From Brevinematales bacterium (lineage in GTDB: Bacteria; Spirochaetota; Brevinematia; DTOW01), in assembly GCA_026415355.1 (NCBI GenBank), contig JAOAHF010000009.1, forward strand, positions 1-64,000: 64,000 bases of DNA, given 5' to 3'. The notes beneath the pieces were generated by a model, which was not told the origin of the DNA, made no database searches, and saw only the letters and a list, made by a program, of their open reading frames with translations. The position numbers and the translations under genes were made by a program. Below are positions 56,914 to 58,295 of this stretch, piece after piece; the stretch's first letter is position 1, and each line of letters starts with the position of its first letter.

Positions 56914-56939
56914 TAATTGTAATGTAGGAGATAGGCATT

Positions 56940-58295
56940 ATGATGAGGTCTTTGTATTCTGGTGTATCTGGGTTGGTTAACCATCAGGTTAGGATGGATG
57001 TTTTGGGTAATAACATTTCAAATGTTAATACTTATGGTTTTAAGAGAGAGAGAGTTACGTTTCAAGATATAATCTCACAAATGGTAGAAGCATCAGCTAA
57101 ACCTACTGATGAGAGGGGTGGTATAAATTCAAAGCAAATAGGACTTGGTATGACAGTTGCTAGCATAGACAAGATCATGACTCAAGGTAGCATACAGACA
57201 ACTGGTATAAATACTGATCTTTCTATAGCGGGTGAGGGATTTTTTGTTCTTAAAAAGGGTGATCAACTTTTCTACTCAAGGGCTGGTAATTTTTATATAG
57301 ATAAAAATGGTACTTTGGTTAACTCAAGTGGTTTTAAAGTTCAAGGTTGGAAGGCACAAAAATTAGAAACTGGTGAGATAATAATAAATCCTTCAGGTCA
57401 AATTGAAGATCTTGTTATTCCTAGAGGAGCAAAAAGTCCAGCAGCGGCTACGACTGTGGTCAAGTATAGGTCTAATTTGGATGGTAGAACACCAGTACTA
57501 ACACCACAGTCCAGTCTTTTAGATAGAGAGAAGTACACTCACAAAACTAGTGTGGATATCTTTGATTCGTATGGGAATAGATATAGAATGTTTATTGATT
57601 TTGTAAGAACAGATCTAAATACTTGGGTTGCTACTGTTAATGTCGAAAATTCTAGTGGAGTTGTTGTGAGTGTTGGTGAAGAAAAAGTTGATAATAATAA
57701 TCAGTTTACTATTGTTTTTGATAATAAGGGCACTTTAAGAAGTATTTCTGATAATAGTGTTAATCCTACGGTTATGGATTCTGGTACTCTCATGGCTAAT
57801 GTGAGTTTTACTCTACCAGATGGTACTAGACAGACTGTTAAAGTAGAATTAGGTGTTGTAGGTAGTATTGAAAATAGTATTACTCAGTTTTCTTCTCCTT
57901 CAACTGCTTCAGTTTATGATCAAGATGGACATGCTATGGGGTATCTTGAGAGCTTTAAGATAGACAGTTCGGGAACTATAATAGGTGTTTTTACTAACGG
58001 TCTTCAAGAACCTTTAGGACAAGTAGCTTTGGCTGGATTTACTAATCCTCAAGGTCTTGAGAAGGTTGGTGAAAATTTGTACATTGAAACCATGAACTCA
58101 GGACTTGCAGATATAAGTCCAGCGGAGATAAAAGGTAAAGGTAAGATATACTCAGGAGCATTGGAAATGTCTAATGTTGATTTATCTGATGCTTTTGTTG
58201 ATATGATCGTTACACAAAGAGGATTCCAAGCAAATTCGAGAACAATAACAACGACGGATCAGATGCTACAAGAAATACTGAATCTCAAGAGATAA
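56940..58295 (+). CDS. flgE: Flagellar hook protein
   Basis: 451 residues (ATG at 56940 or 56943, AGGAG upstream). N-terminal rod motif SLYSGVSGLVNHQVRMDVLGNNISNVNTYGFK, IAGEGFFVL, and C-terminal EMSNVDLSDAFVDMIVTQRGFQANSRTITT. It forms the curved hook of the periplasmic flagellum. In spirochaetes, hook subunits are covalently cross-linked by lysinoalanine between Lys165 and Cys178 with Asn179 assisting. Here residues 165 and 179 are Lys and Asn, but 178 is Ser (KYRSNLD), and the protein has no cysteine. Confidence 0.96.
   Translation: MMRSLYSGVSGLVNHQVRMDVLGNNISNVNTYGFKRERVTFQDIISQMVEASAKPTDERGGINSKQIGLGMTVASIDKIMTQGSIQTTGINTDLSIAGEGFFVLKKGDQLFYSRAGNFYIDKNGTLVNSSGFKVQGWKAQKLETGEIIINPSGQIEDLVIPRGAKSPAAATTVVKYRSNLDGRTPVLTPQSSLLDREKYTHKTSVDIFDSYGNRYRMFIDFVRTDLNTWVATVNVENSSGVVVSVGEEKVDNNNQFTIVFDNKGTLRSISDNSVNPTVMDSGTLMANVSFTLPDGTRQTVKVELGVVGSIENSITQFSSPSTASVYDQDGHAMGYLESFKIDSSGTIIGVFTNGLQEPLGQVALAGFTNPQGLEKVGENLYIETMNSGLADISPAEIKGKGKIYSGALEMSNVDLSDAFVDMIVTQRGFQANSRTITTTDQMLQEILNLKR

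Follow-up and report, generated by a model that had tools for sequence, protein, structure and literature searches.

Ser178 of the flagellar hook protein FlgE in a Brevinematales bacterium and a Cys-or-Ser rule at this position across the spirochaetes

The window, the whole stretch of 64,000 nucleotides analyzed here, carries on its forward strand the gene of a flagellar hook protein, FlgE. The gene and the residues discussed below are located as follows.

56926–56930, + strand: AGGAG, nine bases before the ATG, read from the sequence as the likely ribosome-binding site of flgE
56940–58295, + strand: flgE, flagellar hook protein of 451 residues without Cys (open reading frame translation and homology)
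57351–57362, + strand: Lys138 and Lys141, in the vicinity of the alternative Leptospira lysines K145 and K148 without being homologous to them
57432–57434, + strand: Lys165 (AAA), lysine partner of the predicted cross-link, placed by alignment
57471–57473, + strand: Ser178 (TCT), homologous to Cys178 of Treponema denticola and to Ser179 of Leptospira; predicted source of dehydroalanine
57474–57476, + strand: Asn179 (AAT), invariant in spirochaetes and usual in FlgE from elsewhere
57903–57905, + strand: Thr322, equivalent to T. denticola Thr334 by alignment; Thr or Ser in all 206 spirochaete FlgE compared
57909–57911, + strand: Ser324, equivalent to T. denticola Lys336; non-basic here, basic in 194 of the 206

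The best PDB match of the window FlgE is T. denticola FlgE, and its identity with other spirochaete FlgE ranges from 47 to 95%. An earlier note had described a spirochaete-type hook protein with Lys, Ser and Asn at residues 165, 178 and 179 and Cys nowhere in its 451 residues. Translation confirms these residues, and the homologous numbering is borne out by an alignment to T. denticola FlgE that is gapless at all three positions. In the phmmer alignment, VVKYRSNLDGR of the window runs without gaps against ..VNYACNLDKR of the wild-type T. denticola D2 domain (6ndw), which pairs Ser178 with Cys178 and Asn179 with Asn; Lys165 pairs with the Lys of 6ndx. The AlphaFold2 model of the window protein is confident for D1–D2 (approximately residues 90–405) but not for the terminal helices. 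The predicted D2 matches T. denticola 6ndw, 6ndt and 6ndv with a TM score of 0.83 (2.1–2.3 Å), and the lysinoalanine cross-linked dimer 6ndx with a TM score of 0.81, so that the modeled D2 fold is equivalent to that of T. denticola. A misalignment at 178, which the note had itself raised as an objection, is rejected by the two PDB alignments, the fold match and the phylum alignment.

The note had also allowed for a second FlgE that retains the Cys. None was found in the assembly (1.76 Mb, 97% complete, 32% G+C), which has one FlgE, the single protein match at E≤1e-30. Two further matches to the hook/rod D1 domain fall in frames of only 273 and 312 residues, the shorter length expected of FlgG/FlgF. 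Chance or a sequencing error at Ser178 is likewise rejected, as all five members of the window's family have Ser178. An estimate of growth temperature from amino-acid composition was set aside, being judged unreliable at 32% G+C.

Among the features of lysinoalanine-forming FlgE, Lys165 and Asn179 are both present in the window protein, and a β-eliminable residue at 178 (Cys or Ser) is provided by Ser178. The Cys178 of the Cys-type found in Treponema and Borrelia is absent, TCT encoding Ser. Also lacking is the possibly defining basic residue that would correspond to Lys336. Compared with T. denticola FlgE, in which Cys178 and Lys165 are joined (6ndx, 6ndw, 6ndt, 6ndv), the window FlgE is thus alike in Lys165, Asn179, the Thr334 equivalent, the D1–D2 architecture and the D2 fold, and unlike in having Ser in place of Cys178 and Ser324 in place of Lys336. 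The second of these departures was overlooked in the earlier note, according to which only the Cys is replaced.

FlgE was sampled from genomes across the whole spirochaete phylum. The first set comprised 137 rows from 136 genomes in 56 families. Cys occupies position 178 in 69 of these rows and Ser in the other 68, and Lys165 and Asn179 do not vary; 29 families have Ser only, 26 have Cys only and one is mixed. A second batch brings the sample to 206 FlgE, taken from 204 spirochaete genomes. At position 178, 111 of these have Cys and 95 have Ser, and no other residue occurs; Lys165 and Asn179 are each found in 206 of 206. This position is the sole alignment column in which more than three sequences have Cys. 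All six Ser codons are in use among the Ser-type families, which suggests that the residue is under selection and not the product of recent mutation. In 11 FlgE from outside the spirochaetes the residues at this position are G, G, F, A, V, L, A, A, G, L and F, which argues against a general structural need for either Ser or Cys. These eleven usually have no Lys at 165, and most have Asn179. As Asn179 is common outside the phylum, it is not a mark of cross-linking; the combination of Lys165 with Cys or Ser at 178 is. The window FlgE is a normal representative of a known Ser-type, found in about half of the sampled spirochaete families.

Two genomes in the survey, G120 (L162, L210) and G201 (L187, L218), have two full-length Ser-type FlgE genes each; these could be genuine second hook genes or could stem from mixed assemblies. 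The FlgE of Leptospira borgpetersenii, with Lys and Ser in the 165 and 178 columns, comes from a 65-kb record labeled plasmid lbp1, in which fliK, flgD and flgE are consecutive (NZ_CP012031.1:24723-32114); by that label, the annotation places hook genes on an extrachromosomal element.

Ser-type chemistry has been described for Leptospira, where Ser replaces the Cys of FlgE and lysinoalanine is still formed in flagella from cells; in Leptospira interrogans, the link is a Ser179–Lys166 lysinoalanine (PMC10691653). Purified recombinant Leptospira FlgE from E. coli forms lysinoalanine autocatalytically in vitro at pH 11; it needs pH 10–11 and reacts more slowly. The C178S variant of T. denticola FlgE forms lysinoalanine in vitro too (PMC10691653). 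The L. interrogans protein resembles the window FlgE in having Ser at the homologous position, the Lys partner, Asn as the next residue and no cross-linking Cys, but the Lys336 position is still basic in Leptospira FlgE and is Ser324 in the window FlgE. Overall identity with L. borgpetersenii FlgE is ∼49%. The same study noted Brevinema andersonii FlgE (A0A1I1E638) with K165, S178 and T328 (PMC10691653). Compared by these published residues, its Ser178 and Lys165 have the same numbering as in the window FlgE, and B. andersonii is probably in the same class as the window organism. The Ser form is therefore not the anomaly for which the earlier note took it: the observation is confirmed and its interpretation partly supported, and most of its novelty is removed by this 2023 paper.

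We regard the window FlgE, with a probability of about 0.77, as an ordinary Ser-type hook protein in which Ser178 and Lys165 would be joined as lysinoalanine via dehydroalanine, with no dedicated enzyme. The hook subunits would assemble first. Ser178, at the D1–D2 junction, would then lose water to give dehydroalanine, to which Lys165 of a neighboring subunit would add, forming the covalent lysinoalanine bond; an enzyme dedicated to this reaction would not be needed. Counted against this reading are the slower reaction of Leptospira FlgE and its need for high pH, and the Ser or Gly that occupies the Lys336 position in the window's family, so that a residue marked as important for cross-linking is lost.

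The alternative that survives best, although we consider it unlikely, is that no covalent cross-links join the hook subunits in this lineage and that Ser178 is a harmless substitute for a lost Cys. The window FlgE without any Cys and the loss of the Lys336 equivalent would both agree with this, as would the poorer leaving group that Ser offers compared with Cys (PMC10691653). However, relaxed constraint would allow Ala, Thr or Gly at 178, none of which is seen in any of the 206 sequences, and Lys165 and Asn179 are retained throughout; moreover, the Ser form is functional in Leptospira (PMC10691653). The uncross-linked hook that the earlier note had put forward is thus a poor fit with the invariant Lys165 and the strict choice of Cys or Ser.

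Somewhat less likely again is a requirement for an unknown enzyme or cofactor that activates the Ser hydroxyl, so that dehydroalanine would arise from Ser178 only with its help. The alkaline conditions required by Leptospira FlgE in vitro speak for such a factor, and the authors of that work suggest that unknown cellular factors may compensate for the less reactive Ser (PMC10691653). Against it, the reaction proceeds unaided in recombinant Leptospira FlgE as well as in T. denticola C178S (PMC10691653), and no LANC_like protein was found in the genome by a search that was positive in one control. A search of the genome for DUF4135, the LanM-type dehydratase domain, gave no match, but had no positive control and is hence uninformative. 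Dehydroalanine from Ser had been listed in the earlier note as one option, by a lanthipeptide-like dehydration; the origin from Ser stands, whereas an enzyme of that kind is not required in principle, since recombinant Leptospira FlgE reacts alone.

Another covalent bond, either of a different Lys with Ser178 or of a non-lysinoalanine kind, is very improbable: Leptospira does make several isoforms through the extra reactive lysines K145 and K148 (PMC10691653), and Lys138 and Lys141 lie nearby in the window FlgE, but the equivalents of K145 and K148 are T144 and I147 and Lys165 is invariant. With these alternative lysines absent, we infer that Ser178–Lys165 cross-linking in the window organism would give mostly one isoform, with Lys165.

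The Cys/Ser history was traced on a FlgE tree, a single-gene tree built without column 178. The tree implies about six interchanges of Cys and Ser (a parsimony minimum of six), at least four of which are forced by well-supported branches. Cys- and Ser-type FlgE are mixed in family f14 (L041, L054, L086, L105, L106, L217) and also in family f38. Within f14, a single genus (g41) has Ser in one genome (G043) and Cys in another (G051), a recent swap that is useful for experiments. Rooted with two non-spirochaete FlgE on long branches, the tree requires six changes from a Ser ancestor and seven from a Cys ancestor. Ser is weakly favored as the ancestral residue, by one or two parsimony steps in a one-gene tree with long outgroup branches. 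The statement that only the Cys is replaced presumes Cys to be the norm, when the Ser-type accounts for about half of the families sampled, and with Ser favored as the ancestor it may run in the reverse direction. A fuller scenario can be offered tentatively, as one that we hold to be possible but would not expect to be right: Ser would be ancestral and used in about half of the families, Cys would have been gained repeatedly as a faster variant and sometimes lost, and in the window's class Ser chemistry would proceed with position 336 non-basic, in an active site unlike both studied types.

The Lys336 position, which is marked in the published alignment (Fig. 1F of PMC10691653), holds a basic residue (Lys, Arg or His) in 194 of the 206 FlgE; among the Cys-type FlgE of the first set, this residue is always Lys or Arg. 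PDB entry 6ndv is the T. denticola K336A variant, which shows only that its authors probed Lys336. All 12 FlgE with a non-basic residue belong to three families of the window's class (f1, f2 and f5): the residue is Ser in the window and Gly in a sister genus; f2 has Tyr and f5 has Glu. The class itself, by inference the Brevinema group, has Ser178 in 18 of 18 genomes from five families, one genome being read via a matching public contig (L005). No 16S rRNA gene was found in the window's assembly. A contig scan with a single sequence gave only two close MAG relatives.

The surroundings of the gene differ as well. In the window's family (L006–L009), flgE lies apart from flgD, which in the window genome is on another contig (G000:C5:44948), whereas flgD adjoins flgE in all other flanked loci examined, save three with short contigs. 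The neighbors of the window flgE are the genes of a von Willebrand-type protein and an HD-GYP-like protein, both on the minus strand. The non-basic Lys336 equivalent and the separation of flgE from flgD look particular to the window's lineage. Elsewhere in the genome there are four FlaA-family matches (G000:C9:78507, C11:24840, C3:107037 and C3:106397; L155–L158), and FlaA sheath proteins fit periplasmic flagella. Two of the four are side by side on C3, and several flagellar sheath proteins are thus present in a small genome.

In the published account, Cys is the rule and Ser the exception of Leptospira, whereas our survey finds a strict two-letter rule throughout the phylum, with repeated swaps between Cys and Ser, one of them inside a single genus. 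Three findings are worth keeping: this strict rule, how widely the Ser-type occurs, and the loss, in the window's class, of the basic residue at 336. The rule and the repeated swaps together offer a clean natural experiment in the unassisted dehydration of an unactivated Ser at cellular pH. Proposed anti-spirochaete drugs directed at the cross-linking reaction are affected as well, because Ser-type sites may respond unlike Cys-type sites.
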